This document shows positions 18,236-36,300 of a DNA stretch of 64,000 bases, piece by piece (the stretch's first letter is position 1; each line of letters starts with the position of its first letter). The translations under genes were made by a program, and so were the position numbers. The notes under the pieces were generated by a model, which saw only the letters and a list, made by a program, of their open reading frames with translations, did no database searches and was not told the DNA's origin. Source of the DNA: Nonomuraea sediminis (GTDB taxonomy: Bacteria; Actinomycetota; Actinomycetes; Streptosporangiales; Streptosporangiaceae); NCBI RefSeq assembly GCF_018531495.1, contig NZ_JAHDTI010000011.1, forward strand, positions 1 to 64,000, in the 5' to 3' direction.

Positions 18236-18904
18236 ATGGGCGACTTACTGGTGACGGGGGCGGCAGGCGGGATCGGCTCGGCGGTGGTGTCCGCCCTGGA
18301 GGCGGCGGGCCACCGGGTGACCGCCCTCGGCAGGAGCCTTGAGCGGCTGCCCGGCTCGGCCCGCCGGATCGAGGCGGACCTGTCGCGGCCGGAGACCCTG
18401 GCCGCCGCCCTCGGCGCCCTCGGCGAGCTGGACGCGCTGATCCACTGCGCGGGGACCGCCCACGTGGCCCCCGTGGCGGACGCACCCGTCGAGCTCTGGA
18501 ACAGGACCCTGGCGGTGAACCTGGCCTCCGCGGCCGAGATCACCCGCCTGGCGCTGCCCGCCCTGCGCCGCTCCCGGGGTCACGTCGTCTTCGTCAACGC
18601 CTCGCCCGGGATGCGGGCCGTACCGCGCTGGTCGGCCTTCGTCGGCAGCAAGACCGCGCTGCGCGAGCTGGCCGACTCCCTGCGCGAGGAGGAGGAGCCG
18701 CACGGCGTCCGCGTCACCACCGTCTACCCGGCGGCCACGGCCACCGACCACCTGCGCGACATCCGAGCCTCCTTCGGGCGCCCCTACGACCCCGCGGCCT
18801 GCATCCAGCCGGACAGCCTCGCCGCCATGATCGTCTGGTTGCTGGCCGCGCCCGCGGACTCCTACGCCTGCGAGCTCGCCGTCATCCCCGCCCCTCCCCG
18901 GTGA
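18236..18904 (+). CDS. Short-chain dehydrogenase/reductase lacking the catalytic Tyr
   Basis: A 222-residue SDR protein with the nucleotide-binding TGAAGGIG motif at about residues 7-14 and the NAS serine at about 120. Where the family has Y-x3-K it reads SAFVGSK, so the catalytic Tyr is Phe while the Lys is kept. The codon is TTC, not a frameshift. The protein may be a poor or altered catalyst, or an NAD(P)-binding regulator. At 222 residues it is slightly short for the family. The ATG at 18236 follows the CGNR gene by 11 bp. Its end overlaps the convergent secreted-hydrolase gene by 23 nt. Confidence 0.88.
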   Translation: MGDLLVTGAAGGIGSAVVSALEAAGHRVTALGRSLERLPGSARRIEADLSRPETLAAALGALGELDALIHCAGTAHVAPVADAPVELWNRTLAVNLASAAEITRLALPALRRSRGHVVFVNASPGMRAVPRWSAFVGSKTALRELADSLREEEEPHGVRVTTVYPAATATDHLRDIRASFGRPYDPAACIQPDSLAAMIVWLLAAPADSYACELAVIPAPPR

Positions 18905-20807: not shown

Positions 20808-21437
20808 TTATTCGATGACCCAGGTGGCCGCATCCCTGGAGTAGACGGTGAAAGCGTTGGGCAGGCCCAGGAAACCTTGGGTCTGCCCAATTGTTCGCCA
20901 GCCTTCCGCCTCGCAGAATCTCTCGACACGTGGTGTCGAGAGCGCTTTGAGCAGAATGCGAGGCCGTGATAGTTGCGCGACCACGAAGCTTTTGAGCCTG
21001 CCCGGTATCCCTTGCTGAGCTTGAGCGACCTCGTCGGTGACCACGAAATCGACCAAGGCGAAACTGTCCCGGATCCTGGCACGCACGAAATCATCGTCGA
21101 GGTCAGGCTGCCTCGGTTCCCACCAGATGGATCCGGCGGTCAAGGGGTGCGCGAAAGTAAAAGCGACAACGCGTGCTCCCGACGCGAGGAGAATCCCTTG
21201 GATCTCTTCGGCGGGCCGGCCGCGCAACGGTTCGTGCCGCCTGGGAACGTCCCAGACCGTCAGCATCCGGACGTCCTCGGCTTCCATCAGGAGGCCTATC
21301 GCGGCCTCAGCGCCATCCCGGTCACCGGGGTCCACCAGGAATGACCTGGTCCCGCGGTTGCCGTAAACCTCGAACAGGGCATCGTGGAGCGGTCGCGCTG
21401 AGGAGCCATGGTGGTCAATCCGCCAGAACAATCCCAT
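20808..21437 (-). CDS. Hypothetical protein, no recognised domain
   Basis: A 209-residue soluble protein that I do not recognise. It has no signal peptide or membrane helix; notable stretches are GLFWRIDHHGSS at the N-terminus, WEPRQPDLDDDFV in the middle and TVYSRDAATWVIE at the end. ATG 21437 has an AGAGGG site 8 nt upstream; ATG 21470 would add 11 residues. It stands alone between a minus-strand hydrolase and a plus-strand operon. Codon use is slightly less GC-biased than its neighbours, which could mean recent acquisition. Confidence 0.6.
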   Translation of the reverse strand: MGLFWRIDHHGSSARPLHDALFEVYGNRGTRSFLVDPGDRDGAEAAIGLLMEAEDVRMLTVWDVPRRHEPLRGRPAEEIQGILLASGARVVAFTFAHPLTAGSIWWEPRQPDLDDDFVRARIRDSFALVDFVVTDEVAQAQQGIPGRLKSFVVAQLSRPRILLKALSTPRVERFCEAEGWRTIGQTQGFLGLPNAFTVYSRDAATWVIE

Positions 21438-21594
21438 GGGACATCGCCCTCTGTTCGCGGTGCGAGCCATTCACCTGAGGTCTTGCATCGGCAGGGGTGC
21501 CGGTATCGTACCTGACTCGATGTCGCGTGCGGCGGGGGTAACTTTCGACAGTTACAGGATGCAGTGAGCGGGGCGTGAGCGGCACGCTACCGGC

Positions 21595-22785
21595 ATGTCA
21601 GTCGTCCGGTATGACCACATTGTGATCGGGGCGGGCGCCCTCGGGGCAGCCGCAGCCTACTGGCTGAGCGCCGCGGGGCGCGGCAGGACCCTGGTGTGCG
21701 AGCAGTTCGCAGCCGGTCACCCGTGGGGGTCTTCTGACGATCACTCCCGCATCATCAGGCATGCCTACCATTCGCCGATCTACACCGCGCTGACGCCGTC
21801 CGCCTACCGGTTGTGGGGGGAGGTCGAGGCGCGCGCCGGGGAGCGGCTGCTCATCCGGTCGGGCGGGCTGGACCTGGCCCGTGAGGGCAGCGCCGGTCAC
21901 GACGTCATGAGGCTCTACGGCCGCTCCATGGATGCGGCGGGCCTGCCGTACGAGGAGTTCGGCGCGGCGGAGCTGCGCAGGCGCTGGCCGGATTGGCACG
22001 TTCCCGACGACACGGTGGCGCTCTACCAGGCCGAGGGCGGCCTGATCGACATCCGCGCGGCCACCGCCGCGCACCTGCGGCTCGCGACCCGGCAGGGGGC
22101 GCAGGTGCTGGAGGAGTGCCTGGTCCACGACGTGGAGTCCGGCGACGACGGCGTCGTCGTGCACACCTCGCGCGGGACGTTCGCCGCCGGGGCGCTGGTG
22201 ATGTGCGCGGGCTCGTGGGCGGGCGGCCTGCTGGACAGGCTCGGCAGCCCCTTCCCCCTGGAGCTCACCCAGGAGCAGGTCCAGTACTTCACGGTCGACG
22301 ACGCCGCCAGGTTCACCCCGGACCGCTTCCCGATCTGGATCTGGCACGCCGACCACGAGATCTACGGCATCCCCGTGTACGGTGAGCGGGCCGTCAAGGT
22401 GGCCAGGGACATGACGGGCAAGTTCGTCACCCCCGAAACGCGCGGCCACATCCCCGATCCCGCGGAGACCGAGTTCGTCCGCGCCTTCGTGCGGGAGATC
22501 CTGCCCGCCTGGGCGGGCGAGCTCGCCCTCGCCAAGACCTGCGTGTACGACCTGCCCAGGGACCGCGAGCTGGTCATCGGCGCGCTGCCCGGCAACCCCA
22601 GAGTGTTCGTCGCCGTGGGCGCCGGGCACGCAGGCAAGTTCGCCACCCTGATCGGCCGCGCGCTGGCCGACTTGGTGACCGAGGGCGGCACGCCGTACGC
22701 CGTCGAGCCCTTCTCCCCAGGACGGCCGGGGCTGGCCGCCGACGCCCCGGCGCTCTACCGCCTCGGAATCCGGGAGCTGACATGA
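21595..22785 (+). CDS. FAD-dependent sarcosine / N-methyltryptophan oxidase-like enzyme
   Basis: A 396-residue flavoprotein of the monomeric sarcosine oxidase/SolA family, which oxidatively demethylates secondary amino acids to formaldehyde, H2O2 and the free amine. The Rossmann FAD motif is HIVIGAGALGAAAAYWL (about 8-24). HPWGSSDDHSRIIRHAYHSP matches the family's active-site loop. KTCVYDLPRDRELVIG near residue 305 carries the Cys position that binds FAD covalently. The C-terminus has GAGHAGKFATLIGRALADL. It opens a long operon: the next gene starts in an ATGA overlap. The downstream Rieske oxygenase and second flavoprotein suggest stepwise demethylation of a common substrate. Confidence 0.88.
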   Translation: MSVVRYDHIVIGAGALGAAAAYWLSAAGRGRTLVCEQFAAGHPWGSSDDHSRIIRHAYHSPIYTALTPSAYRLWGEVEARAGERLLIRSGGLDLAREGSAGHDVMRLYGRSMDAAGLPYEEFGAAELRRRWPDWHVPDDTVALYQAEGGLIDIRAATAAHLRLATRQGAQVLEECLVHDVESGDDGVVVHTSRGTFAAGALVMCAGSWAGGLLDRLGSPFPLELTQEQVQYFTVDDAARFTPDRFPIWIWHADHEIYGIPVYGERAVKVARDMTGKFVTPETRGHIPDPAETEFVRAFVREILPAWAGELALAKTCVYDLPRDRELVIGALPGNPRVFVAVGAGHAGKFATLIGRALADLVTEGGTPYAVEPFSPGRPGLAADAPALYRLGIRELT

Positions 22786-24329
22786 ACCGGCGCGCACTGC
22801 TGAAGAACTCCGGCATCCTGCTCGGCACGGCGGGGCTGCTCACCGCCTGCCGGCAGCGTTCCACGATCGGCCCGGTGGGCGCGCCGCGGCGCGGCGGAAC
22901 CCTGCGCATCGGGATGCTGGGCGCGGGCAAGTCCGAATCGTTCAACCCGTCCACCACCACCAGCGCCATGATCAACCTGGCCAGGGCGGCCGCCGTCTTC
23001 AACCCGCTGGTCGAGATCGCGCCGGACCTGTCCCTGCGGCCCTCGCTGGCCACCGCCTGGCACCACGACCCCACCGCGACCCGCTGGACGTTCGCCCTGC
23101 GGCCCGGCGTCACCTGGCACGACGGCAAGCCCTTCACCGCCGACGACGTGATCCACTCCCTGCGCTGGCTGTCGGAGCCGGACAACCCGCTCGCCTCCTC
23201 GATGGCGAACGTCGACCTGAAGAAGACCGCCAAGCAGGACGCCACGACCGTCGTCGTCGCGTTGAAGAGCCCGGATCTCGACCTCCCGCGCACGATCGCC
23301 GGGAACTCGATCATCCAGGACGGGGTGACGACGTTCGGCAGGCCGGTGGGCACCGGGCCGTTCGTGTTCGACTCCTTCACCCCCGGCCAGCGCAGCGTGT
23401 GCCGCCGCAACCCCCGGTACTGGAGCCCGGGCAGGCCCTACCTCGACGAGCTGGTCATCTCCTCCATCGACGACGAGACCGCGCGGGTCAACGCGCTGCT
23501 CGGCGGACAGATCGACGTGGTGTGCCAGATGCCGTACCCGCAGGCCAGGGCCTATCAGAAGAGCGGCGCCATCCGGCTGCTGAACAGCCCCAGCCCCGCC
23601 GCCCACGGCTTCTACATGGCGGTCGACGCCAAGCCCTTCGACGACGTGCGCGTCAGGCAGGCGCTGCGCCTGCTGGCCGACCGGCGGCAACTGGTCGACG
23701 TGGCCCTGTACGGGTTCGGCGCGGTCGGCAACGACGTGTTCGGATCCGGCCTGCCGTACTTCGACAGCGGCCTGCCCCAGCGCGGGCGGGACGTCGGCAA
23801 GGCCAAGGAGCTGCTGAGCGCCGCGGGCCACGGCGCCGGGCTCACCCTCACGCTGGAGACCGCCGCGGCCGCGCCGGGGATGGTCGAGGCGGCCACGCTG
23901 TTCGCCGAACAGGTCAAGGACGCGGGTGTCACGATCGAGGTCGTCCAGGTGGACTCCGCCTCGTACTTCGACCCCACCGTGCAGTATCTGAGACGGCCGT
24001 TCGGCCAGACGTTCTGGTCGGGGATGACGAGCCTGGCGGGCTTCTACCAGTTCGCCGTCCTGCCCGACGGGGCGGGGAACGAGACCCACTGGAACGACGA
24101 GCGGACCGCCGGCCTCTACCAGCAGGCGGTCGCGGCCGCGGACCCCGGCCAGGCCGCCCGCGCCTGGCGCGCGATCCAGCAGGAGCAGTGGGACAACGGC
24201 GGCTACATCTGGTGGGGGTCGGCCGACAACGTCGACGCCGTGTCCGCCAGGGTCGGCGGGATCACCCCCAGCAGGTACATGAGCCTCGGCCTGCCGGGCA
24301 GCCTCGTCGAGAGCTACGTGACGACATGA
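22782..24329 (+). CDS. ABC substrate-binding lipoprotein, peptide family (SBP_bac_5)
   Basis: A 515-residue extracytoplasmic receptor of the oligopeptide/dipeptide/opine family. The N-terminus has a signal with lipobox LLTACRQR (Cys near residue 23). Family signatures include TRWTFALRPGVTWHDGKPFT, ADDVIHSLRWL and VRQALRLLADRR. It delivers substrate to the two permeases that follow, both starting in 4-nt overlaps. The substrate should relate to the neighbouring amino-acid and peptide enzymes. Confidence 0.93.
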   Translation: MNRRALLKNSGILLGTAGLLTACRQRSTIGPVGAPRRGGTLRIGMLGAGKSESFNPSTTTSAMINLARAAAVFNPLVEIAPDLSLRPSLATAWHHDPTATRWTFALRPGVTWHDGKPFTADDVIHSLRWLSEPDNPLASSMANVDLKKTAKQDATTVVVALKSPDLDLPRTIAGNSIIQDGVTTFGRPVGTGPFVFDSFTPGQRSVCRRNPRYWSPGRPYLDELVISSIDDETARVNALLGGQIDVVCQMPYPQARAYQKSGAIRLLNSPSPAAHGFYMAVDAKPFDDVRVRQALRLLADRRQLVDVALYGFGAVGNDVFGSGLPYFDSGLPQRGRDVGKAKELLSAAGHGAGLTLTLETAAAAPGMVEAATLFAEQVKDAGVTIEVVQVDSASYFDPTVQYLRRPFGQTFWSGMTSLAGFYQFAVLPDGAGNETHWNDERTAGLYQQAVAAADPGQAARAWRAIQQEQWDNGGYIWWGSADNVDAVSARVGGITPSRYMSLGLPGSLVESYVTT

Positions 24330-25285
24330 GGTACGCGCTGCGGCGATGCGCCGCGGGCCTGGCCACGCTCGCCGTGCTGTCGGTCCTGGTGTTCGTGGCC
24401 ACCTCGGTCCTGCCCGGTGACGCGGCCTCGGCCCTGCTCGGCAGGAACGCCACCAAGGAGGCCCTGTCGGCGCTGCACCACGACATGGGGCTGGACCGGC
24501 CGCTGCTCGTCCAGTACGCCGACTGGATGGGCGGCCTGCTCCACGGCGACCTGGGCCGCTCGGTGACCGGGTACGTCTCCGGCGAGCCCGTCGGCGTTTG
24601 GGAGCAGATCAGCGGCAAGCTGGCCAACTCGCTGACGCTGGCCGTGGTGTCCTTCGCGCTGATCGTGCTGGCCTCGGTGGTGCTCGGCGGCTACGTCGGG
24701 CTGAAGGCGGGCCGCTGGCAGGATCACCTGCTCTCGACGCTCACGCTCGTCCCTTCCGCACTCCCGGAGTTCGTCCTGGGTGCCCTGCTGCTCGGGGTGT
24801 TCTTCACCTGGCTGGACGTGCTGCCGCCGGTGTCCCTCATCGAACCCGGCGCGGCGCCGTGGGACGAGCCTGCCCTGCTCGTCCTGCCGGTGCTCACGGT
24901 GCTCGGCGTCACGGTGGGCGCGGCTGCGCGCATGATCAGGGCCGGCATGCTCGACGCGCTGAAGGCCGAGTTCGTGGCGGCGGCGCGGCTCAACGGGATC
25001 CCCGAGGCACGCGTGGTCCGGCGCTACGCGCTGCGCAACGCGCTCGGGCCCGGCATCCAGGTGCTCGCGCTGATCGCGCAGTACCTCGTCGGCGGATTGC
25101 TCGTGGTGGAGGCCATGTTCGGCTACCCCGGCATCGGCAAGGAGTTGGTTGACGCGGTGATCATTCACGACAACACCGAGGTCAGATCGATAACGATGGT
25201 GCTGGCCTGCGCGTACGTGGGCCTGGCCATCCTGGCCGACCTGCTGGTCATGCTCGTGGTTCCCAAGCTGCGGACGACGTCATGA
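24326..25285 (+). CDS. Peptide-type ABC permease (DppB-like)
   Basis: A 319-residue permease with about six helices. The DppB/OppB pattern includes LPGDAASALLGRNATKEAL after helix 1, the cytoplasmic EAA loop (EFVAAARLNGIPEARVVRRY, then ALRNAL) and FGYPGIGKELVDAV near the end. The ATG at 24326 overlaps the preceding stop by 4 nt. It pairs with the DppC-like protein encoded next. Confidence 0.93.
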   Translation: MRYALRRCAAGLATLAVLSVLVFVATSVLPGDAASALLGRNATKEALSALHHDMGLDRPLLVQYADWMGGLLHGDLGRSVTGYVSGEPVGVWEQISGKLANSLTLAVVSFALIVLASVVLGGYVGLKAGRWQDHLLSTLTLVPSALPEFVLGALLLGVFFTWLDVLPPVSLIEPGAAPWDEPALLVLPVLTVLGVTVGAAARMIRAGMLDALKAEFVAAARLNGIPEARVVRRYALRNALGPGIQVLALIAQYLVGGLLVVEAMFGYPGIGKELVDAVIIHDNTEVRSITMVLACAYVGLAILADLLVMLVVPKLRTTS

Positions 25286-26058
25286 CCCGGCGGATCGGAA
25301 CCGCGCTGACGGGCCTGATCGTGCTGCTGGCCATCTCGGGGCCGTTCCTGGCGGGCAGCCCGACGCGAACGGTCGGCCCGCCGTTCAGCTCGGCCACCGG
25401 CTTCCTGGGTACGGACTTCCTCGGCAGGGACGTCCTGGCCCGCGTGCTGTCGGGCGGGCAGAGCGTGCTCCTGTACGCGGGCGCCGCGACCGTGCTGGCC
25501 TACCTGGGCGGGATCATCATCGGCCTCGTTTCCGGATATTTCGGCTCATGGCCGGATGGCGTGCTCATGCGCGGCGTGGACGTGCTCCTGTCCTTCCCCT
25601 CGCTGGTGTTCCTGCTGCTGTTCGCCACCGCGTTCGGCCGCGGCATCGCCTCGGTCGTGATCGCCACCGCCGTGATCCAGCTGCCGGCCGTCGCCAGGAT
25701 CGTCAGGACCGCCGCACTGGAACAGGCGACGCGCGGCTACGTCGAGGCGGCGGTGCTGCGGGGCGAGCGGGCCGCCGCCGTCATCGCCAGGGAGATCCTG
25801 CCGAACATCACCCGGCCCATCTCCGCAGACCTCGGCCTGCGCTTCACCTGGTCCGTCCTGCTCATCGCGAGCGTCAACTTCCTCGGGCTCGGCCTGCAGC
25901 CCCCCGCCGCCGACTGGGGCCTGATGGTCGCCGAGAACAGGGCGGGCATGCACCTCGAGCTCAACCCGATGGCGGTGCTGGCGCCGGCGTTCATGCTCGG
26001 CGTGCTGACCGTCGCGATCAACCTGGTGAGCGACGCCCTGGCGGGAGACGGCCGATGA
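25282..26058 (+). CDS. Peptide-type ABC permease (DppC-like)
   Basis: A 258-residue permease, shorter than typical DppC because the N-terminal cytoplasmic extension is small. GTDFLGRDVLARVLSGGQ is the family hallmark, and the EAA loop reads GYVEAAVLRGERAAAVIARE. It has five to six helices. It starts in an ATGA overlap with the DppB-like gene and ends in one with the ATPase gene. Confidence 0.93.
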   Translation: MTRRIGTALTGLIVLLAISGPFLAGSPTRTVGPPFSSATGFLGTDFLGRDVLARVLSGGQSVLLYAGAATVLAYLGGIIIGLVSGYFGSWPDGVLMRGVDVLLSFPSLVFLLLFATAFGRGIASVVIATAVIQLPAVARIVRTAALEQATRGYVEAAVLRGERAAAVIAREILPNITRPISADLGLRFTWSVLLIASVNFLGLGLQPPAADWGLMVAENRAGMHLELNPMAVLAPAFMLGVLTVAINLVSDALAGDGR

Positions 26059-27785
26059 TCCTCGACGTGACAGGCCTGCGGGTCGAGCTGGACTCCGGCA
26101 CCCCGGTGATCGAAGGGCTCGACCTGAGGCTCGCGCAGGGCGAGGTGCTCGGCCTCGTCGGAGAGTCGGGCAGCGGCAAGAGCACCACGGCGCTGGCGCT
26201 GCTCGGCTACGCCAGGCCGGGCACCGCCATCACCGCCGGCGACGTGACCGTGTCCGACCGGCCCCTCCTCCGCCTCGAGGAGTCCGCGCGCCGCCGCGTG
26301 CGCGGGGACCTGGTGTCCTTCGTCCCGCAGGACGCGGCCCGCGCGCTCAACCCGGCGCTGAGGATCGGCGCCGCCATCCTGGACGTCGCGCCCCGGGCGC
26401 GGACGGCGGACATCCTCCAGGCGGTCGACCTGCCGGAGACGGCCGCGCGGCGCTTCCCGCACCAGCTGTCCGGCGGCCAGCAGCAGCGGGTCACCATCGC
26501 GATGGCGCTGGCCGGGCAGCCGCCGCTCATCGTCATGGACGAGCCGACGACCGGCCTGGACGTCATCACCCAGGCCGGGATCCTGGGGGAGATCCGCAGG
26601 CTCAAGGACGAGCTGGGCGCGGCGGTCGTGTACGTCTCGCACGACCTCGCGGTCGTCTCCCAGATCGCGGACAGGATCGCGGTCATGTACGCGGGCGCCG
26701 TCGTGGAGCAGGGGCCCGCGGCCGAGCTGCTCGCCCGCCCGCGCCACCCGTACACGCGGGGACTGGTCCAGTCGATCCCGGACCACGCCAGTCCGCGCAG
26801 GCTCACCCCGATGCAGGGAACCGCCGTCGGCGTCGAGGACCGGCCCACCGGCTGCTCCTTCGCTCCCCGCTGCGCGCAGCGGACCCCTGAGTGCGACACC
26901 GCCAAGCCCGCGCCTGTCCTGGTCTCTCCGGTTCACCAGGTCCTGTGCCGGCATGCGGACCGGACTCCTCCGATCGAGCTCGGCGCGCCGCACGCGGCGG
27001 CACCGACCGCGCGGCGGGGGCTGCTCGCCGTACAGGGTCTGCGCGCGGGGCACGGCCGCGGGCGGACGGTGGTCGCGGCCGACGGCGTGTCCTTCGAACT
27101 GTCCGCGGGCGAATGCCTGGCCCTGGTCGGGCAGTCCGGCAGCGGCAAGACCACTATCGCGCGCTGCCTGGCGGGCCTGCACCGGCCGGACGCCGGCACG
27201 ATCACCCTGGACGGCGTGCCGCTGGCCGCCCGGGCCCGCGACAGGTCGGCCGAGCAGCGCCGCCGCATCCAGTACGTCTTCCAGAACCCGCACGAATCGC
27301 TCAACCCGCGCCGCCGGGTGGCCGACGAGGTGGCCAGGCCCGCCCGGGTGCTGCGCGGCCGCTCGCGCGACGCCGCCCGGGCCGAGGCCCTCGACCTGCT
27401 CGATCTGGTACGGCTGCCGCGCCGCACCGCCGGCCTGTACCCGGACCAGCTGTCCGGCGGAGAGCGCCAGCGCGTGGCCATCGCCAGGGCGCTCGCCGCC
27501 GGGCCGGAGGTGCTGATCTGCGACGAGGTCACCTCGGCCCTGGATGTCTCGGTGCAGGCGGCGATCCTCGAGCTGCTCGCCGACCTGCGCGACGAGCTCG
27601 ACCTGGCCATGCTGCTCATCACCCACGATCTCGGGGTGGTGGCCGTGGCGGCCGATCGCGTGGCCGTCCTCGAACGGGGCGTGCTGTGCGAGACCGGCCA
27701 GGTCGCCGACGTGATCCGCGCACCCGCCCACCCGTACACCCAGCGGCTGATCGCGGCCGCGCCGACGTTGAGGGAGCGGCCGTGA
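26055..27785 (+). CDS. Fused double ATPase of the peptide-type importer (DppD-DppF)
   Basis: A single 576-residue chain contains both nucleotide-binding domains. Domain 1 (about 1-290) has GESGSGKST, LSGGQQQRVTIAMALA, VMDEPTTGLD and the peptide-transporter extension GCSFAPRCAQRTPEC. Domain 2 (about 315-570) has GQSGSGKTT, the Q-loop in YVFQNPHESLNPRR, LSGGERQRVAIARALA and a Walker B ending CDEVTSALD. Such fusions are common in actinobacteria. GTGA overlaps the following M24 gene, linking transport and degradation. Confidence 0.94.
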   Translation: MILDVTGLRVELDSGTPVIEGLDLRLAQGEVLGLVGESGSGKSTTALALLGYARPGTAITAGDVTVSDRPLLRLEESARRRVRGDLVSFVPQDAARALNPALRIGAAILDVAPRARTADILQAVDLPETAARRFPHQLSGGQQQRVTIAMALAGQPPLIVMDEPTTGLDVITQAGILGEIRRLKDELGAAVVYVSHDLAVVSQIADRIAVMYAGAVVEQGPAAELLARPRHPYTRGLVQSIPDHASPRRLTPMQGTAVGVEDRPTGCSFAPRCAQRTPECDTAKPAPVLVSPVHQVLCRHADRTPPIELGAPHAAAPTARRGLLAVQGLRAGHGRGRTVVAADGVSFELSAGECLALVGQSGSGKTTIARCLAGLHRPDAGTITLDGVPLAARARDRSAEQRRRIQYVFQNPHESLNPRRRVADEVARPARVLRGRSRDAARAEALDLLDLVRLPRRTAGLYPDQLSGGERQRVAIARALAAGPEVLICDEVTSALDVSVQAAILELLADLRDELDLAMLLITHDLGVVAVAADRVAVLERGVLCETGQVADVIRAPAHPYTQRLIAAAPTLRERP

Positions 27786-28987
27786 CCACCTTTGCGGACT
27801 TCATCAGGGCGGAGGAGGAACGGCTGGCCGACCGCCCACGTGAGCTGCCGTTCGACCGCGAGGAGTACTCCGGGCGGCTGGCGGCGCTGCGCGCGCGGAT
27901 GGCCGGGGAGGGCATCGACGCTCTGGTGCTCTCCTCGCCGGACGGCATGTGCTGGCTGGACGGCTACGACGGCCGCTGGTACCGCTCGCATTCCGGGACC
28001 GCCTTCCCGCCCGCGCAGTGCACGCTGGTCACCGCGGACGGCCTGCTCATGATCGAGTCGGAGTCGCACGAGCAGCTCGTCCGGCTCACCTCCTGCGTGG
28101 AGGACTTCCACGGCGTCTCCGACACCGTGACGCTGGAGGAGTACACCCACACCCTCGCCACGCTGCTGCGCGGCCACGAGACCGTGGGCGTCGAGCGGTG
28201 GAGCAGCGTGCCCAACCCGGCCACGCTCGGCGCCGTGGAGGAGGCGCTCAAGGCGCGGGGCCACCGCGTCGTGGACGCCACCGGCACCGTACGGCTGGCG
28301 CGCCGCCTCAAGTCGCCCGCCGAGATCGCGCTCGTCGAGCGGGCACAGGCGGCCGCCGACGCCGGCACCCGCGAGCTGCACCGGCACGTCAGAGCGGGGA
28401 TGACCGAGCTCGAGGCGTGGAGCGTCTACATGGCCGGGATGATCGCCGCGGGAGGCGAGCCGTCCGCGATGCACGAGACGGTCGCCGCGGGCCCGGCGAT
28501 GCCGATGCTGCACGGCGTCAGCACCCGGCGCGCGCTGCGGCCGGGCGACCACTTCCACCTGGACGCGGCCGCCGCGGTGCACCGCTACCACGCCAGGGCG
28601 ACCAGGCCCTTCGTCCTCGGCGAGCCTCCGGCGGAGCTGGCCGCCCTGGCCGTGATCGTGGCGGGCGCGCACGACGTGCTGACCGCCACCGCGCGGCCGG
28701 GCCGGCCGTTCCGCGAGCTGAACAAGGCCCTGCGCGAGTACTTCGCCGACGCCGGCGTCGAGGGCTGGGCCGGCGGCTACGAGCTGGGCGTCTCCTTCCC
28801 GCCCGACTGGGTGGGCGAGTTCCTCTGGTCCTGCGACGACGACACCGACGCCGTCATCGAGCCCGGGCTGGTGACCAATTTCGAGAGCTGCGCCTACCTG
28901 GCGATGGTCGACACGGTCGTCTTCGACGACCAGGGGGCGCGGCTGCTGTCGTCGCTCCCGCGCGAGCTGATGGTTGGAGGATCGTGA
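27782..28987 (+). CDS. M24-family (creatinase-like) hydrolase with degenerate metal site
   Basis: A 401-residue protein with the creatinase N-terminal domain (about 15-160) and a pita-bread M24 domain (about 170-395). The usual metal motif reads HFHLDAAAAV, then YHARATRPFVLGEP, so the first Asp is kept but the second (Y-x2-D-x-T-R) is Arg. The late Glu pair reads NFES (kept) and MVDTVV (Glu replaced by Val). Loss of metal ligands is known in creatinase, which hydrolyses creatine to sarcosine and urea without metal. With a sarcosine-oxidase-like enzyme in the operon, a C-N hydrolase is more likely than a true Xaa-Pro aminopeptidase. The substrate is unknown. Confidence 0.8.
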   Translation: MTTFADFIRAEEERLADRPRELPFDREEYSGRLAALRARMAGEGIDALVLSSPDGMCWLDGYDGRWYRSHSGTAFPPAQCTLVTADGLLMIESESHEQLVRLTSCVEDFHGVSDTVTLEEYTHTLATLLRGHETVGVERWSSVPNPATLGAVEEALKARGHRVVDATGTVRLARRLKSPAEIALVERAQAAADAGTRELHRHVRAGMTELEAWSVYMAGMIAAGGEPSAMHETVAAGPAMPMLHGVSTRRALRPGDHFHLDAAAAVHRYHARATRPFVLGEPPAELAALAVIVAGAHDVLTATARPGRPFRELNKALREYFADAGVEGWAGGYELGVSFPPDWVGEFLWSCDDDTDAVIEPGLVTNFESCAYLAMVDTVVFDDQGARLLSSLPRELMVGGS

Positions 28988-29793
28988 AGAGCGCGGACGG
29001 TTACGAACTCAACGCATGGACCACCGGCGAGGGCGCCGGCGTGCTGCTGGGCCTGCACGGCGGCCCGGGCGGCGACGGCGGCGCCTACCTGGCCCCGCTG
29101 CACCGGCTGGCAGGACCCGATCGGCGGGTGGTGACCTACGACCAGCTGGCGACCGGCGGCTCGCAGGCCCCTCCCGGCGACTACCCGTGGAGCCTGGAGC
29201 GGGCGGTGGCCGACGTCGAGGCGATCCGCGCCCAGCTGGACGTGGACCGCCTGGACCTGTTCGGCCACTCCTTTGGCGGCATGCTGGCCCTGCAGTACAC
29301 GCTCGACCACCCGGAACGGGTGAACCGGCTCGTGCTGTCCAACACCGCCTCCAGCTCCGCCAGGATCACCGCGACCTTCCTCGGCCAGCTCCTCCAGCGG
29401 TACCCGCTGACGGAGGCGGTCGCCGCCATCACCGCCGACGTGCTGCTCGACCACCGCGATCCGCGCTTCCGCGCCGTGGTGCGCGACTACCTGGGGGACG
29501 AGGAGACGCTGGACCTCGGCCCGGCGGGCGCCGGGCTGTGGGGGCCGCACGTGTGGTTCGCCACCGCCGCGCTGCGCGACTGGGACGTCGACGACCGGCT
29601 CCACGAGATCACCGCCCCCACTCTGATCCTGCACGGCGGCGACGACATGTCCGATGACGCGATCAACCGGGCGCTCGCCGGCGGGATCCCGGGAAGCGAG
29701 TGGATCACCCTGAACGGCAAGGGCCACACCTTCTTCGACGACGTGCACCTGGCGATCGTCGGCACCTTTCTGAACGGCTGGAGGGAAACATGA
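28984..29793 (+). CDS. Alpha/beta hydrolase, proline-iminopeptidase-like
   Basis: A 269-residue soluble hydrolase with the oxyanion motif LHGGPGG (about residues 24-30), nucleophile elbow GHSFGG (Ser near 97), late Asp in LHGGDDMSDDA and His in NGKGHTFF. HGGPGG and the cap organisation match proline iminopeptidases and related amidases. The GTG at 28984 overlaps the M24 stop by 4 nt. In this operon it probably releases an N-terminal residue or hydrolyses an amide or lactam of the imported compound. Confidence 0.85.
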   Translation: MKSADGYELNAWTTGEGAGVLLGLHGGPGGDGGAYLAPLHRLAGPDRRVVTYDQLATGGSQAPPGDYPWSLERAVADVEAIRAQLDVDRLDLFGHSFGGMLALQYTLDHPERVNRLVLSNTASSSARITATFLGQLLQRYPLTEAVAAITADVLLDHRDPRFRAVVRDYLGDEETLDLGPAGAGLWGPHVWFATAALRDWDVDDRLHEITAPTLILHGGDDMSDDAINRALAGGIPGSEWITLNGKGHTFFDDVHLAIVGTFLNGWRET

Positions 29794-30920
29794 CCAGAGC
29801 GAGCGTGGTGATGCGCGGGCAGATCGCGCGCGGGATCGGCATTCCCCGCGAGCTGTACACCTCACAGGAGCTGTACGAGCGCGAAGTCGAGGCGATCTTC
29901 CAGACCAGCTGGCTGCTCGCCGGGCACGAATCGCAGCTGCCCGCCGTCGGCGACTACCTCACGGTCGAGGTCGGGGACGAGAGCGTCATCGTCGCCAGGA
30001 GCCGCAGCGGGCTGAGCGCGTACGCCAACGTGTGCAGGCACCGCGGCGCAAGGCTCGTCGATCCCGGGTGCGGGCAGGCCAGGATCCTGGCCTGCCCGTA
30101 CCACCAGTGGGCCTACGAGATGGACGGCAGCATGCGCGGCGCGCCCAAGATGCCGCCCGGGTTCGACCGGACGGCCTACCCCCTGGCCCGCGTGGCCGTG
30201 GAGACCTGGCAGGGGCTCGTCTTCGTGAATCTGGCGCAGGACCCGGCGCCGCTGTCGTCGCTGCTGGCTCCCGCCGAGCAGCTGATCCTCCCCTTCGACC
30301 TGGCCGAGGCGAGCGTGGCGCACACGATCACCTATGACGTCGCGGCCAACTGGAAGATCGTCTGGGAGAACGCGCAGGAGTGCTACCACTGCAGCGCCAA
30401 CCATCCCGAGCTGATGCGGACCTTCGACCTGACCTCCGGCGGCATCGAGGGTGTCTACCGGAGCGCCGACCGGCGCGTCCAGGTCACCCCGCTACCCCTG
30501 CGCAAGGGAGCCGTCTCGCTCACCGTGGACGGCGACGCCGCATGCTCCCTCCCGATGGGCGCCTTCGGCGCGGGCCGCGAGCCGTACACCGCGGCCCTGC
30601 ACATGAAGCCGACCTTCGCCGTCGTGTGCTGCCCCGACTACGCCGTGGTCCTGCGCGAGCGCCCGCTCGCCATCGATCGGACCGAGGTGACGATGACGTG
30701 GCTGGTGCGCGCGGGAGCCGAGGAGGGACGCCACTACGACCTGGACAACCTCATCAAGGTCTGGGACCAGACCAACGTGCAGGACTGGGCGCTGTGCGAG
30801 CGGACGCAACTGGGCGTGCGCTCCAGGTTCTTCCAGCCGGGCCCGCTGTCGGGGGACGAACCCTCCGTCGCCGGATTCCACCAGGCCTACGCCGACCTGC
30901 TCGCCGCCGCCGGACTGTAG
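29790..30920 (+). CDS. Rieske non-heme iron oxygenase, glycine-betaine type
   Basis: A 376-residue oxygenase alpha subunit. The Rieske cluster is CRHRGARLV plus CPYHQWAY (C-x-H...C-x2-H, about residues 82-104). The mononuclear iron site is in ENAQECYHCSANHPEL with two His ligands. This arrangement matches GbcA/CntA/stachydrine-demethylase-like enzymes that oxidise N-methyl groups of quaternary amines. No ferredoxin-reductase partner is encoded nearby, so electrons must come from elsewhere. It may perform the first demethylation or hydroxylation, with the operon's flavoproteins handling secondary amines. Confidence 0.92.
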   Translation: MTRASVVMRGQIARGIGIPRELYTSQELYEREVEAIFQTSWLLAGHESQLPAVGDYLTVEVGDESVIVARSRSGLSAYANVCRHRGARLVDPGCGQARILACPYHQWAYEMDGSMRGAPKMPPGFDRTAYPLARVAVETWQGLVFVNLAQDPAPLSSLLAPAEQLILPFDLAEASVAHTITYDVAANWKIVWENAQECYHCSANHPELMRTFDLTSGGIEGVYRSADRRVQVTPLPLRKGAVSLTVDGDAACSLPMGAFGAGREPYTAALHMKPTFAVVCCPDYAVVLRERPLAIDRTEVTMTWLVRAGAEEGRHYDLDNLIKVWDQTNVQDWALCERTQLGVRSRFFQPGPLSGDEPSVAGFHQAYADLLAAAGL

Positions 30921-30930
30921 GGGGACACCG

Positions 30931-32124
30931 ATGAACGACGTCGTGATCGTGGGCGCGGGCGTGCTCGGCCTGGCCACCGCCGCTCACCTGCTGGAACGCG
31001 GCGCGCGCGTGACCGTGGTCGAGGCTGACACGCCCGCCTCCGCCACCTCGGGCGCCGGCGCGGGATTCGTCGGCCTGTGGGCCGCCGGGTACGCGCACTT
31101 CCTGACCGAGCAGGAACTGGCGATGCAGCGCTACGGGCTGGACTTCTACGGCGCCCTCGACCGCGACTTCGACTACCGGCCCAACGGCAACCTCTACCTG
31201 GCCACCACCGAGGACGGGTGGCGGCGCTGGGTGGAGCCCATCGCCCGGCACCCCTTCGCGCCCAAGGGCACCCGCACGCTCACCCCTGCCATGGTGGCCG
31301 ACGTCACCGGCGGCGTGGTGAGCCAGGACGGGCTGCTGGGCGGCGTCCTGCACCCGGGCGGCATCCAGATCAGCGCGGGCCGCGCGACCAGGGCGCTGGC
31401 CGCGCTGGTCGAGGAGCGCGGCGGCCGGATCCTCGTCAGGACCCGCGTCACGGAACTGCTCACCTCGGACGGCGCCGTGACCGGGGTCCGCACCCAGGCG
31501 GGAGACCTGCGGGCCGGCACCGTGATCCTGGCCTGCGGCGCGTGGACGAACACCCTGCTCGCGCCGCTGGAGGCGCACCTTCCGCTGCTGCGCATGGTCG
31601 CCACCCGGGTGATCTCACCGCCGTCCGGCGTCCCGTCCGGCATGCCCACGATCATGGTGCCGGACCTGTACGGGCTGTGGCTTCGCGAGCACCGGGGCGG
31701 CCTCACCTACGGCAACGGCGACGGGTACGCCCCGCTGTTCGAGCTGGGCGGCACGCTGGGAGACAGCGGCCAGCCCCGGCGCGAGGAACTGGTGCACCGG
31801 CTGGTCGGCGAGCTGGCGCCCAAGCTCGCCGGCCTCGTCCCCGGCCACGACACCTCCATCGGCTGGTGGCTGCAGGGCGTGCCGTGCATGACCCCCGACC
31901 GGCGCTTCTACGCCGGTCCGCTGGTGCCGGGGCTGCAGGTGCTCGCCGGGGACAACGAGGCGGGCGTGACGCACGGGCCCGCGCTCGGCCGCCTGATGGC
32001 CGATCTGGCACTGGAGGGCGGAAGCTCCTGGCTCGACCCCGCCCCCTACGAACCCCGCCGGTTCGACACGGCGGGCCTGTCCACCGAGGAGTCCGTCCTG
32101 CGCGCGATGCCGGCCCGCCGATGA
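30931..32124 (+). CDS. FAD-dependent amine / D-amino-acid oxidase family protein
   Basis: A 397-residue DAO-family flavoprotein: VVIVGAGVLGLATAAHLL (about 4-21), the acidic end of strand 2 in VVEAD, the active-site segment TSGAGAGFVGLWAAGYAH, and TVILACGAWTNTLLAP about two thirds in. It resembles sarcosine/dimethylglycine oxidase catalytic subunits, but nothing identifies its substrate. The SolA-like enzyme that opens the operon is a different subfamily, so two oxidations or two substrates are implied. ATG 30931 has GGGGGA upstream. The next gene begins in an ATGA overlap. Confidence 0.88.
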   Translation: MNDVVIVGAGVLGLATAAHLLERGARVTVVEADTPASATSGAGAGFVGLWAAGYAHFLTEQELAMQRYGLDFYGALDRDFDYRPNGNLYLATTEDGWRRWVEPIARHPFAPKGTRTLTPAMVADVTGGVVSQDGLLGGVLHPGGIQISAGRATRALAALVEERGGRILVRTRVTELLTSDGAVTGVRTQAGDLRAGTVILACGAWTNTLLAPLEAHLPLLRMVATRVISPPSGVPSGMPTIMVPDLYGLWLREHRGGLTYGNGDGYAPLFELGGTLGDSGQPRREELVHRLVGELAPKLAGLVPGHDTSIGWWLQGVPCMTPDRRFYAGPLVPGLQVLAGDNEAGVTHGPALGRLMADLALEGGSSWLDPAPYEPRRFDTAGLSTEESVLRAMPARR

Positions 32125-34067
32125 GCGTCCACGACTACGTCTCCGCGTTCTTCCTGCGGACTCGCGAGCCCGCGCTCGGCACGATCGCCGACGCCTGCGA
32201 CGTCGCGGTCTCGCCGGACGGCGGCAGGATCGCCTTCACCGCGCACGTCCCCGTCGCGGTCGACCAGGACCCGGTACGCCGCGTCGCGCTCCTCGACCTG
32301 CGCGACGGCAGCGTCGTCCTGCGCGACGGGCCGGAGGAGAGCCGCCAGCCCTGCTGGTCACCCGGCGGCCGGCTGGCCTGGCTCGCCGGCGAGGGCGGCG
32401 TCGAGGTCGAAGGCCGCTTCCCCGGCGCGGCCTTCCGAGCGGCGATCCCCGGCGTGGCGGAGTACCTCGCCTGGTCGCCGGACGGCGAGAGGCTGCTCGT
32501 CGGCGGAGCCGAGCCCGGTGCGGAACTGACCGACGTCGCAGGGTCCGGCCGCATCCCCCTGGGCGCCGAGCGCCCCGGCTGGGCGCCCGAGGTCAGCGAG
32601 GGGGAGCCGGTCACCGGCCGGCGCCGGGTCTGGATCCTGGATCCCACCCGCGGCACCACCCGGTGCCTGCCGGGCGAGCTGAACGTCTGGCAGGCCGCCT
32701 GGGCGGGGCCCGACCGGCTGGTCTGCGTCACCTCCGGCCACCCGGGCGAGTCGGCCTGGTACGCCGCGGACCTGACGTTCCTGCACACGCGGGACGGATC
32801 GGTGTCCTCCGTCCCGCTGGGCGCCGACCGGCAGCTGGGCCTGCCCGCCGGGGCTCCGGGCGGCGGGCACGTGTCCGTGGTGACCGGCGCGATGAGCGAC
32901 CGCGGCCTCTACACCGGGCGGCTCGTCGTCATCCCGGACGGCGGCCACCCCCAGGAAGTGGACACCGCCGGCGTGGACGTGTCCGACCAGTCCTGGCTCG
33001 ACGACGACCGGGTGCTGTTCGCCGGGCTGCGCGGGCTGGAGACCGTGATCGGCACCCACTCCCTAGCCACCGGCGAGACCCGGGTGCTGTGGGAGTCGGC
33101 GCGGACCTGCGGGCCGCTGCTGCCCGCCGCGGGCGCGGGCGGAGAGACCGTCGCCGCGGTCGTCCACGGCTACGACCTGCCACCGGCTCTCGCGGTGATC
33201 CGCGACGGCGCCGCCGAGACCGTGCTCGACCTGGCCAACCAGGGCAGCGCCCACCTGCTCGACCTCGCGGGCACCCTGCGGCCGGTCCGCTGGCGGGCGC
33301 CCGACGGGCAGTCGGTGGAGGGGCTGCTGGCGCTGCCGCCGGGCGACGGGCCGTTCGCCCTGGTGGTGTACGTGCACGGCGGGCCGGTGTGGGCCTGGCG
33401 CAACGAGTGGTCGATGCACTACGCCCACACGCCGCTGCTGGTCGGGCGCGGCTACGCCGTACTGCATGTCAACATGCGCGGGAGCGCGGGCCGCGGCCAG
33501 GACTTCGCGATCGCGGGGCTGCGCGACATGGGCGGCGTCGACGCGGCCGACATCCTCAGCGGCGTCGACGCGCTCGTCGCCGCGGGGCTGGCCGACGGCG
33601 AGCGGGTCGGCGTGACGGGCAACAGCTACGGCGGCTTCATGGCGGCCTGGCTGGTGGCGACCTCGGACCGCTTCGCCGCGGCCGTGGCCCGCTCGCCGGT
33701 CACCGACTGGGTCAGCCAGCACCACACCTCCAACCTGCCGGGATTTGACGCGTTCTGCCTGAACGGCGACCCGCTCGACCCCGGCTCGGACTACCGGACC
33801 CGCAGTCCCCTCTACCGGGCGGACCACGTCGACACCCCGATCATGCTGATGGCCGGGGCCCACGATCTGGCGACCCCGCCGGAGCAGGCGGCGATGTTCC
33901 ATCGTGCGTTGGTCGAGCGGGGCAGGCCGAGCACACTGGTGATCTATCCGGAGGAGGGGCACGGTGTCCGGCACCACCTGGCGGTCGCCGATCAGTGCGT
34001 CCGCCTGTTGGAGTTCCTAGAGCGACACATGCCATCGGAAAATGGTACAAACAGGACGTGTGGGTGA
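32121..34067 (+). CDS. S9-family prolyl oligopeptidase-like serine peptidase
   Basis: A 648-residue cytoplasmic peptidase. Residues about 20-390 have repeats with SPDG motifs typical of a beta-propeller that filters small peptides. The C-terminal alpha/beta-hydrolase domain has VYVHGGPVWAW, nucleophile GNSYGGFMAAWL (Ser near 505), Asp in MAGAHDLATPPEQ and His in EEGHGVRHH. It belongs with dipeptidyl or acylaminoacyl peptidases. Together with a peptide-type importer and PIP-like hydrolase it supports small-peptide breakdown. Its 3' end overlaps the PucR gene. Confidence 0.92.
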   Translation: MSVHDYVSAFFLRTREPALGTIADACDVAVSPDGGRIAFTAHVPVAVDQDPVRRVALLDLRDGSVVLRDGPEESRQPCWSPGGRLAWLAGEGGVEVEGRFPGAAFRAAIPGVAEYLAWSPDGERLLVGGAEPGAELTDVAGSGRIPLGAERPGWAPEVSEGEPVTGRRRVWILDPTRGTTRCLPGELNVWQAAWAGPDRLVCVTSGHPGESAWYAADLTFLHTRDGSVSSVPLGADRQLGLPAGAPGGGHVSVVTGAMSDRGLYTGRLVVIPDGGHPQEVDTAGVDVSDQSWLDDDRVLFAGLRGLETVIGTHSLATGETRVLWESARTCGPLLPAAGAGGETVAAVVHGYDLPPALAVIRDGAAETVLDLANQGSAHLLDLAGTLRPVRWRAPDGQSVEGLLALPPGDGPFALVVYVHGGPVWAWRNEWSMHYAHTPLLVGRGYAVLHVNMRGSAGRGQDFAIAGLRDMGGVDAADILSGVDALVAAGLADGERVGVTGNSYGGFMAAWLVATSDRFAAAVARSPVTDWVSQHHTSNLPGFDAFCLNGDPLDPGSDYRTRSPLYRADHVDTPIMLMAGAHDLATPPEQAAMFHRALVERGRPSTLVIYPEEGHGVRHHLAVADQCVRLLEFLERHMPSENGTNRTCG

Positions 34068-35226
34068 TCTGCAGAAACTGACCGATCGGATCGGCGAGAG
34101 GCTGGCCCGGTCGGTCGCCATCGACGATCCGCGGATGCGGCTGCAGTCCTACAGCCCGCACTACGGCGCGGTGGACGAGCAGCGGCTGGCCTCCATCCTG
34201 CACCGGCAGGCCAACCCGGAGGCGATCGCGTGGGCGCACGACCACGACGTGCAGCGCGCGACGGGCTGGCGCCGGGTGCCGGGCAATCCCGGGCTCGGCA
34301 TGCTCAGCAGGGTGTGCGTGCCCATCCGCTTCCACAGGCTGCACCTGGGCTACCTGTGGATCATCGACGCCGACGAGTCGCTCACTCCCGGCGAGCTGCG
34401 CTACGCCGAGCACGGCGCGCGAGAGGCCGCGGACATCATGTACCGCGACGGCCTGGTGTCCGACCTGCAGCGCGCCAGGGAGCGGGAGCTGATCCGCGAC
34501 CTGCTCGACGAGGACCATGCGATCAGGACGCAGGCGCTCAGCGGCCTGGCCGAGGACGCCCTGATGGAGATCGATTCGGCCGCGCAGGTACTGGTCCTGG
34601 ACACGACCCTGCCGGCGGGCGACGGCGACAGGGCGGGCAGGGCCGACCTGGCGCTGGCCACGGCCAGACGGCTGGTGCCGCAGCGGCGGAGCCTCCACCT
34701 GGTGCGCCCCGACCACGCCATCCTCGTGGTGACCTGCGGGCGTGGAGTCCGCACCGAGGACCTGGCCGCCAGGATCGGCGCGGAGTACGGCCGCGACACC
34801 GGCCTGTTCCGGGTCGGCATCGGCGACGAGGTGGCTTCGGCCGCCGCGACCCACGTGTCGTACCGGCAGGCGCTCCAGGCGGTGCGGGTCGGGCAGGTGC
34901 TCGCCCGCGAGGGCATGGTCACCTGGTCGGGCCTGGGCATCTACCGCCTGCTCGTCGAGCTGAAGGTCGACGAGTCCGGCCTCGACCTCCTGCATCCCGC
35001 GCTCACCCGCCTGGCCGAGCACCGGCTGCTCGAAACCCTGGAGGTCTACCTGGACCTCGCGGGCGACGCCAAGGCCACCGCCGAACACCTCCAGGTCCAC
35101 CGCACGACTCTCTACCACCGCCTGTCGCGCATCGAGGAGATAGGCGGCGTCAGCCTCCGCAGCGGCACGGACCGGCTCACCCTCCACCTCGGCCTCAAAT
35201 TGGGCCACCTGTCCGGCCGGCTCTGA
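34042..35226 (+). CDS. PucR-type transcriptional regulator
   Basis: A 394-residue regulator with a central GGDEF-like/PucR region and a C-terminal PucR HTH at about 325-385 (TLEVYLDLAGDAKATAEHLQ, then VHRTTLYHRLSRIEE). Members activate catabolic genes for purines, proline and amino acids. Its place as the last gene of the operon suggests it senses the operon's substrate and autoactivates. ATG 34042 lies inside the S9 gene; GTG 34060 would reduce the overlap to 8 nt and is also plausible. Confidence 0.9.
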   Translation: MVQTGRVGDLQKLTDRIGERLARSVAIDDPRMRLQSYSPHYGAVDEQRLASILHRQANPEAIAWAHDHDVQRATGWRRVPGNPGLGMLSRVCVPIRFHRLHLGYLWIIDADESLTPGELRYAEHGAREAADIMYRDGLVSDLQRARERELIRDLLDEDHAIRTQALSGLAEDALMEIDSAAQVLVLDTTLPAGDGDRAGRADLALATARRLVPQRRSLHLVRPDHAILVVTCGRGVRTEDLAARIGAEYGRDTGLFRVGIGDEVASAAATHVSYRQALQAVRVGQVLAREGMVTWSGLGIYRLLVELKVDESGLDLLHPALTRLAEHRLLETLEVYLDLAGDAKATAEHLQVHRTTLYHRLSRIEEIGGVSLRSGTDRLTLHLGLKLGHLSGRL

Positions 35227-35452: not shown

Positions 35453-36250
35453 TCAGGCCCTGATGACCCGTACTCCGGCGTCGGAGAAGCGGGTCGCCTG
35501 CTCGGCGGGTGCGCTGGTGTCGGTGACCAGTACCGAGACCGAGCCGATCGGGCAGATCCTGGCGAAGGCCTGCTTGCCCAGCTTGGAGCCGTCGGCCACC
35601 ACGATCACCTCCCGCGCCCTGGCGGCCATCAGCCGGTTGATCGCCGCCTCGCCCTCGTGGTGGGCGCTGGCGCCGTGCTCCACGTCGATCGCGTCCACGC
35701 CGAGCACCGCCACGTCCAGCGCCACCTGCTCCAGCATCCCGGTGGCGACCGGCCCCACCAGCTCGTAGGACTGCGCGCGGGCCGAGCCGCCGGTCGTGAC
35801 GACGTGGATGTGCGGCCGGACGACCAGCTCGTGGGCGATGTTGAGCGCGTTGGTCACCACGGTCAGCGCGGGGCCGCGCCCGCCGGGCCCGGGGTCGGCG
35901 CGGGAAGCCAGCGCCCTGGCCACCTCGGTCGTGGTGGTGCCGCCGTTCAGCGCCACCGTCGAGCCCGCGGGCACCAGAGCCGCCGCGGCGGCGGCGATGC
36001 GCTGCTTCTCCGGCGCGTGCTGGGCGACCTTGTAGCGCAGCGGCAGGTCGTAGGACACGCTGTGCGCGGTCGCGCCGCCCCTGGTCCTGGTCAGCAGCTG
36101 CTGCGCGGCCAGCTCGTCGAAGTCGCGCCTGATGGTGGCCGTCGACACGCCGAGCTTCTCCGCGGTCTCGACGACGTCGAGCTGCCCGGCCTCGGCCACG
36201 AGCTCGAGCAGGACGTTCCAGCGTTCGTACCGGTTCACGGGCCCCATCAT
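35453..36250 (-). CDS. DeoR-family sugar-metabolism repressor
   Basis: A 265-residue DeoR/GlpR-type regulator. Residues 1-60 form the HTH (VVETAEKLGVSTATIRRDFD, then EL). The C-terminal phosphosugar-sensing domain is at about 75-245, with LNGGTTTTEVARAL, VTNALNIAHEL and VVVADGSKLGKQAF. Such proteins repress sugar genes until a phosphorylated sugar binds. It is divergent from the first DUF5107 gene and shares a 50-bp promoter gap containing a small dyad. ATG 36250 or 36247 may be used; no strong ribosome binding site is visible. Confidence 0.92.
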   Translation of the reverse strand: MMGPVNRYERWNVLLELVAEAGQLDVVETAEKLGVSTATIRRDFDELAAQQLLTRTRGGATAHSVSYDLPLRYKVAQHAPEKQRIAAAAAALVPAGSTVALNGGTTTTEVARALASRADPGPGGRGPALTVVTNALNIAHELVVRPHIHVVTTGGSARAQSYELVGPVATGMLEQVALDVAVLGVDAIDVEHGASAHHEGEAAINRLMAARAREVIVVADGSKLGKQAFARICPIGSVSVLVTDTSAPAEQATRFSDAGVRVIRA

Positions 36251-36251
36251 G

Positions 36252-36268
36252 ACAAAGTGCTAATTTGT
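36252..36268. promoter_or_regulatory. Candidate DeoR operator
   Basis: ACAAA (36252-36256), a 7-bp spacer and TTTGT (36264-36268) form a small AT-rich dyad next to the DeoR start codon, in the promoter gap shared with the DUF5107 gene. The arms are short, so support is limited. Confidence 0.4.
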
Positions 36269-36300
36269 GCGGAAAGCCGCGGACAACTGTCGAGGAGAAT

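Follow-up and report, generated by a model that had tools for sequence, protein, structure and literature searches.

The Rieske oxygenases of the quaternary-ammonium type (group V) named in the excerpted text of PMC7948474 have carnitine, choline, benzalkonium, glycine betaine, and stachydrine as substrates; the text also assigns a bridging role to Glu205 of CntA and splits the group at one signature position into clades Va (Tyr/Phe) and Vb (Asn). In the window analyzed here, which comprises positions 1 to 64,000 of contig NZ_JAHDTI010000011.1 of Nonomuraea sediminis (GCF_018531495.1), a gene for such an enzyme lies within an 11-gene operon that also encodes a four-gene peptide-type ABC importer, three hydrolases of the M24, S33, and S9 families, two flavoproteins (one SolA-like, one of the DAO family), and a PucR-type regulator. 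Relative to GbcA-type clusters, a GbcA-like example of which the genome carries on its contig C24, the operon belongs to the same Rieske group, but carries the peptide importer and hydrolases in place of choline/betaine genes. In the Sinorhizobium locus, stc4 adjoins the Rieske gene, whereas no reductase gene was found near the operon. We consider it an even chance that the operon is one coupled catabolic unit, by which an N-methylated, peptide-like compound is imported, hydrolyzed, and then stepwise N-demethylated. No such combination was found in literature searches, which covered mostly titles and abstract openings.

The 11 genes, all on the + strand, fill positions 21595-35226, an interval that the initial annotation had delimited correctly while counting ten genes. 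Consecutive genes overlap by exactly 4 bases at 8 of the 10 junctions, the Rieske and DAO genes are separated by a 10-base gap, and the S9 and regulator genes share 8 or 26 bases, according to which start is taken for the latter. Because of these tight overlaps, a single coupled transcript of the 11 genes is very likely. Scans for sigma-70 and terminator signals were empty, a result of low weight in a G+C-rich actinomycete. The leading family of every operon gene scored above its Pfam gathering cut-off.

A contig scan with the Rieske protein singled out Amycolatopsis jejuensis (66%) and Streptomyces xylophagus (62%), while the remaining 18 of 20 loci reached at most 38%. The S. xylophagus locus (L040) holds 10 of the 11 genes in window order (solute-binding protein, permeases, ATPase, M24, S33, Rieske, DAO, S9, PucR), and the A. 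jejuensis locus (L039) has an eight-gene core, consisting of the four-gene importer, M24, S33, Rieske, and DAO, with M24 ahead of the ATPase; the genes of these relatives were called by a simple script using G+C by codon position, and their starts are approximate. Proteins of the core are 47-69% identical to their counterparts in the two other genera. The operon is a real, conserved, and rare unit. At E <= 1e-85, the sole matching genome was the window's own among 341 of its family, S. xylophagus itself among 392 of a Streptomyces sample, and A. jejuensis itself (plus a second, 46% copy) among 390 of the Amycolatopsis family, and a phylum sample gave 7 of 396 genomes at E <= 1e-75, six of them besides the window's own and each with the Asn motif; such family- and phylum-level searches score few candidates per genome and may miss divergent orthologs. 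Searches of plasmid collections (P0001, P0002, P0006-P0010) found no record matching at 60% identity or above, and the eight plasmid loci inspected contained no further copy of the operon. This rare and patchy distribution would fit horizontal transfer. In the left flank, segments lying between 1013 and 16776 that make up 41% of the query match an N. gerenzanensis record at 84%, no Nonomuraea record was among the matches listed for the right flank, and the five matches listed for the operon itself cover 1-2% of its nucleotides; from these matches, the operon therefore appears to sit in strain-variable DNA beside conserved genes.

The initial annotation had proposed a dedicated route, to be given up if the gene subgroups proved to be joined in this strain alone. 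Importer, hydrolases, Rieske enzyme, and two flavoproteins do share one operon, and since the eight-gene core is conserved in two other genera, the objection does not apply to the core, whereas SolA is joined to it only here. Such variation bears on the notion that two or more unrelated nutrient routes share a transcript: SolA, S9, and PucR vary between strains, M24 accompanies Opp-like genes with no Rieske or DAO relative detected in another operon of the window genome (G000:C43), and Opp-like, DAO, S9, and PucR genes occur together, with no Rieske relative detected, on A. jejuensis contig C59. The core, however, is kept in three genera with M24 and the ATPase swapped only once, and because of this synteny we set a loose assembly low for the core and regard the notion as highly improbable.

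The role of the operon is most likely catabolic. We start from what was observed directly: the genes present, their tight spacing, the synteny, the intact catalytic motifs, and the family placements. On this basis, we propose that the Opp-type importer (solute-binding protein, two permeases, double ATPase) would take up a small N-methylated peptide-like compound, whose amide-type bonds would be cleaved by the cytoplasmic M24, S33, and S9 hydrolases. The Rieske enzyme would strip a methyl group as formaldehyde from a nitrogen that is quaternary (or tertiary and crowded); remaining N-methyl groups would be removed, or the amine oxidized, by the DAO and SolA proteins, which would yield an ordinary amino acid. 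For its electrons, the Rieske enzyme would depend on a partner whose genes lie elsewhere, most probably the choline-betaine ferredoxin/reductase pair on C24, and the mycothiol enzyme of the C24 cluster would also dispose of the formaldehyde. The compound would be sensed by the PucR-type protein.

The Rieske oxygenase (29790-30920, + strand; Rieske and Ring_hydroxyl_A domains) retains its Rieske cluster (C82/H84/C102/H105) and iron site (H200/H205/D332), and E197 aligns with CntA Glu205, as expected of group V. By contrast, the position of CntA residue 203 is occupied by A195, which matches the signature of neither Va nor Vb. Among 60 Rieske sequences, Ala was found at this position only in the three operon orthologs, against Asn in 23, Phe in 31, and Tyr in 3. 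A tree was built from 40 of these sequences: of the 30 that carry the ENFMECYH motif, 19 were dropped, as was locus L058, whose read-out is masked after the motif. Loci from 29 of the 53 other genomes, together with those of the window genome, supplied the genus paralogs. The three operon enzymes form one clade (support 100/98), which is sister to a copy on A. jejuensis contig C15 (99/98, long branch), and together these are sister to the Asn (Stc2-like) clade under midpoint rooting. The structure model (pLDDT 82.9) gave Z scores of about 42 to Stc2 and 3n0q and about 34 to CntA. Since the modeled fold and the bridging Glu are kept, we assign the enzyme to the quaternary-ammonium type although its signature residue places it outside both named clades. 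The score to the GbcA glycine betaine monooxygenase model NF058607 is 289.5 bits against a cut-off of 670.

Stachydrine demethylase Stc2 (group Vb) shares with the operon enzyme the fold (37% identity in the structural alignment at the Z score above), the bridging Glu, and the His-His-Asp site, and differs in having Asn, like its relatives, where the operon enzyme has Ala. This likeness raises the question of whether a free amino-acid betaine, e.g., proline betaine, is imported whole and demethylated by the Rieske enzyme and then by SolA and DAO, with the hydrolases serving related esters or amides or being passengers. In favor of this possibility, an Opp-type importer handles proline betaine in Sinorhizobium, the two top structural hits include stachydrine demethylase, and SolA passes the N-methyl-L-tryptophan oxidase model. 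Against it, three cytoplasmic peptidase-family hydrolases would have no role, M24 and S33 belong to the core of all three operons, and the Asn of Stc2-like enzymes is replaced, so that we consider it unlikely. A more specific form of the peptide route that we prefer, in which the operon is dedicated to betaine-capped or N-methylated peptides and the Rieske enzymes form a third sub-clade whose Ala lets a bulkier peptide-derived nitrogen fit, is put forward tentatively, as it is rather doubtful in its entirety.

The importer begins with a family-5 solute-binding lipoprotein (22782-24329, + strand; 515 aa; SBP_bac_5, 266.8 bits), in the translation of which an RR pair close to the N terminus and the lipobox-like sequence LLTAC can be seen, and which has orthologs of 59% in A. 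jejuensis and 56% in S. xylophagus. It is followed by two Opp/Dpp-type permeases, the first at 24326-25285 (+; BPD_transp_1 and BPD_transp_1_N; 64-69% in the two relatives) and the second at 25282-26058 (+; BPD_transp_1; 63-66%), and by a fused double ATPase of the DppD-DppF type at 26055-27785 (+; 576 aa; two ABC_tran and two oligo_HPY domains; 63-67%). All the components that define the oligopeptide ABC importer family are thus present (SBP_bac_5, two BPD permeases, ATPases with oligo_HPY), in line with the peptide-type ABC importer of the initial annotation. In this composition the set resembles Opp/Dpp importers, but its binding protein and permeases score under every NCBIfam cut-off listed, and the binding-protein family also includes nickel, heme, and agrocinopine binders, to judge from entry titles. 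In the route proposed here, the ligand would be peptide-like. On a Ketogulonicigenium plasmid, a solute-binding protein gene adjoins a 38% DAO relative.

The first gene of the operon (21595-22785, + strand) encodes a 396-aa FAD oxidase of the SolA/monomeric-sarcosine-oxidase type (NCBIfam NF008425), which scores above the N-methyl-L-tryptophan oxidase cut-off (280.6 vs. 257 bits), a family name that does not show the substrate. Its top PDB matches are sarcosine oxidases, in line with the initial description as sarcosine-oxidase-like, and C316, R55, and K348 align with the sarcosine-oxidase Cys that carries the covalent FAD and with the Arg and Lys that bind the carboxylate. While the family cut-off is passed and the FAD and carboxylate-site residues are kept, D272 stands where sarcosine oxidase has His269, and the substrate may therefore differ. 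The nearest SolA relative encountered (49%) is in a separate cluster on A. jejuensis C15 (L066/L065), together with an alpha/beta hydrolase, an S15 protein, a PucR protein, and the sister-clade Rieske enzyme. The second flavoprotein, an FAD oxidoreductase of the DAO family as previously named (30931-32124, +; 397 aa; DAO, 176.1 bits), is a conserved core member with 61-65% identity to its counterparts in the two relatives. The S. xylophagus operon is followed after 100 bases by a further, unrelated DAO gene, and there is another upstream of the A. jejuensis operon.

The M24 protein (27782-28987, + strand; Peptidase_M24 and Creatinase_N) is a pita-bread hydrolase resembling ectoine hydrolase and creatinase. 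The initial label "creatinase-like" is corrected by the PDB search, in which the nearest entries were those of the ectoine hydrolase DoeA (6twj/6twk, 101.6 bits), followed by prolidases (up to 67.6), with creatinase at only 24.8 bits. Metallo-M24 enzymes (aminopeptidase P, prolidase) bind metal through five ligands, D, D, H, E, and E. In an alignment to prolidase 5cdl and homologs, D261 and E368 are kept and A271, L335, and V376 are replacements; that is, three of five positions are replaced, with the placing of the fifth uncertain (V376 by motif, D382 in the HMMER alignment, where the three orthologs have D/Q/E). H244 and A271 are identical in six aligned M24 sequences, and E368 is kept in 4 of the 6. 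The protein is probably metal-free, as far as this alignment indicates. The AlphaFold model was poor (pLDDT 60.3). With ectoine hydrolases (DoeA/EutD), the M24 protein shares the family, the GYxxGxSxPPDW segment, and Ala at the second Asp ligand position, but it falls far under both ectoine-hydrolase NCBIfam cut-offs (122.2 vs. 575 and 98.6 vs. 613 bits), and the operon is not an ectoine-catabolic context.

If the M24 step were the key one, a cyclic amidine, guanidino, or hydantoin-like N-methyl compound (of the creatine, ectoine, or N-methylhydantoin type) would be opened and then demethylated. Ectoine hydrolase as the nearest PDB relative agrees with this, as does a relative in genome G1643 near a hydantoinase-like and an amidohydrolase-like gene (the latter named from sequence). 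Given the weak creatinase match, the distance from the ectoine-hydrolase cut-offs, and S9, S33, and Opp genes that would be left unexplained, we regard such a substrate as very unlikely. All 5 members found of the M24 clade, which was sought in 148 and 261 genomes, with A. jejuensis and S. xylophagus not searched whole, adjoin a peptide-type transporter (four Opp-like, one POT): the three operons, one other genome with the POT transporter, and a second operon in the window genome (G000:C43:455545-465357; L091, L092). The last, with a 48% M24 relative, comprises genes for an S15 protein, a double RidA-like protein, a solute-binding protein, two permeases, two ATPases, M24, and a ComA-family protein.

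The other two hydrolases also belong to peptidase families. The S33 alpha/beta hydrolase (28984-29793, + strand; 269 aa; Abhydrolase_1) has proline iminopeptidases as its best PDB matches and the motifs around S96 and H248, in line with the initial description as iminopeptidase-like; its score is under the pro_imino_pep_2 (TIGR01250) cut-off (130.7 vs. 167.65 bits). The S9 prolyl-oligopeptidase-family hydrolase (32121-34067, +; 648 aa), likewise recognized as such from the start, matches Peptidase_S9 at 168.9 bits, has an S9 family peptidase as its best PDB match, and has a 58% ortholog in the S. xylophagus operon. Relatives of 42% adjoin hydrolase genes on A. jejuensis C59 and on a Pseudonocardia plasmid. 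The row on this plasmid (pBCI1-2; L093) consists of an alpha/beta hydrolase, aminopeptidase P, the S9 gene, and an alpha/beta hydrolase.

The regulator gene at the end of the operon (34042 or 34060-35226, + strand) encodes the PucR/CdaR-type protein that had been predicted there (HTH_30 and GGDEF_2) and overlaps the S9 gene both here and in S. xylophagus. An S9 or S15 peptidase gene lies within 10 kb of 6 of 7 regulator relatives (E <= 1e-40 in three genomes, the operon's own regulator excluded), namely on A. jejuensis C51, C65, C29, C59, and C15 and in the S. xylophagus operon; one further relative (G342:C19, E 7.7e-36), for which neighbors were listed with no Pfam scan, is outside this count. 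In the 10.1 Mb A. jejuensis genome, with 30 matches to PF02129 (29 over the cut-off), such a match lies no more than 10 kb from 4 of the 5 regulator loci, for which random placement gives about 5e-5, a figure that is only a guide because the 10 kb limit was picked after the loci were seen. On C59 (L105), PucR occurs with S9, DAO, and MFS genes and an Opp-like set, and on C65 (L104) with Opp-like genes, an amidase, an amidohydrolase, and S9. These sets perhaps represent a broader kind of operon for scavenging peptide-like compounds.

One regulator relative lies near M55 D-aminopeptidase, M19, beta-lactamase-fold, and S15 genes, and this, along with the patchy spread in actinomycetes, would suit an operon that inactivates or recycles a peptide-like natural product, e.g., an N-methylated nonribosomal peptide, for detoxification and not for feeding. 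A binding-protein-dependent importer, however, is better suited to feeding than to defense, and none of the 11 genes is an export or classical resistance gene, which makes this a rather unlikely role. A biosynthetic cluster was set aside because an importer is present and assembly enzymes are missing from the operon, although in S. xylophagus a condensation-domain protein is encoded about 2 kb upstream of the solute-binding protein gene.

That the operon lacks a reductase for its Rieske enzyme, as noted in the initial annotation, was borne out by a crude motif scan of the genes surrounding each operon (58 in the window, 23 and 28 at the other two loci), which found no ferredoxin/reductase motif. 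The genome has five PF00970 matches, none of them near the operon; the one on the operon's contig is about 120 kb off, amid phenylacetate-like genes (a guess from their sequences). The C24 cluster encodes a Rieske-type ferredoxin, an S-(hydroxymethyl)mycothiol dehydrogenase, a choline dehydrogenase, and a formyltetrahydrofolate deformylase, all over their cut-offs, as well as a ferredoxin reductase and a GbcA-like oxygenase with Phe at the signature position, both under theirs. The ferredoxin and reductase genes lie at L081:5999-7443. From this gene content, the cluster is a plausible candidate for electron donation in trans and for formaldehyde disposal.

Several observations weigh against the proposed import, hydrolysis, and demethylation route. 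Three orthologous operons were found in total, SolA is in neither of the other two, and S9 and PucR are missing from that of A. jejuensis (8 of 11 genes); conservation thus does not extend to the full scheme. With Ala in the signature position, the enzyme could have a substrate other than a quaternary amine; and since the C15 Rieske enzyme, a companion of SolA and PucR, has Phe, Ala is not tied to these two genes. The core DAO reached no NCBIfam cut-off among the matches listed (25 of 47), the S9, S33, and M24 families each contain many non-peptidases, and an Agrobacterium plasmid carries a distant (29%) M24 gene in an amino-acid (non-peptide) importer operon. The regulator relative at G000:C33 has no identified S9/S15 neighbor. 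We infer the substrate class, the order of steps, the redox partner, and the role of the regulator. If the more specific route for betaine-capped or N-methylated peptides is real, it would connect one-carbon metabolism with the degradation of nonribosomal peptides or of proteins methylated at their terminal nitrogen. A Rieske variant tied to peptide import would widen the substrate range of quaternary-ammonium enzymes and give a handle on the recycling of N-methylated peptides by soil actinomycetes. The Ala signature (motif ENAQECYHC) and the eight-gene core are concrete markers for finding similar operons.

In the surroundings of the operon, two open reading frames just upstream (18882-20669 and 20808-21470, both on the - strand) have no Pfam match, and G+C falls to about 64% over 1.5 kb from position 20500. 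Directly downstream, at 35453-38262, are genes for a DeoR-type regulator (- strand) and a DUF5107 protein (+ strand).

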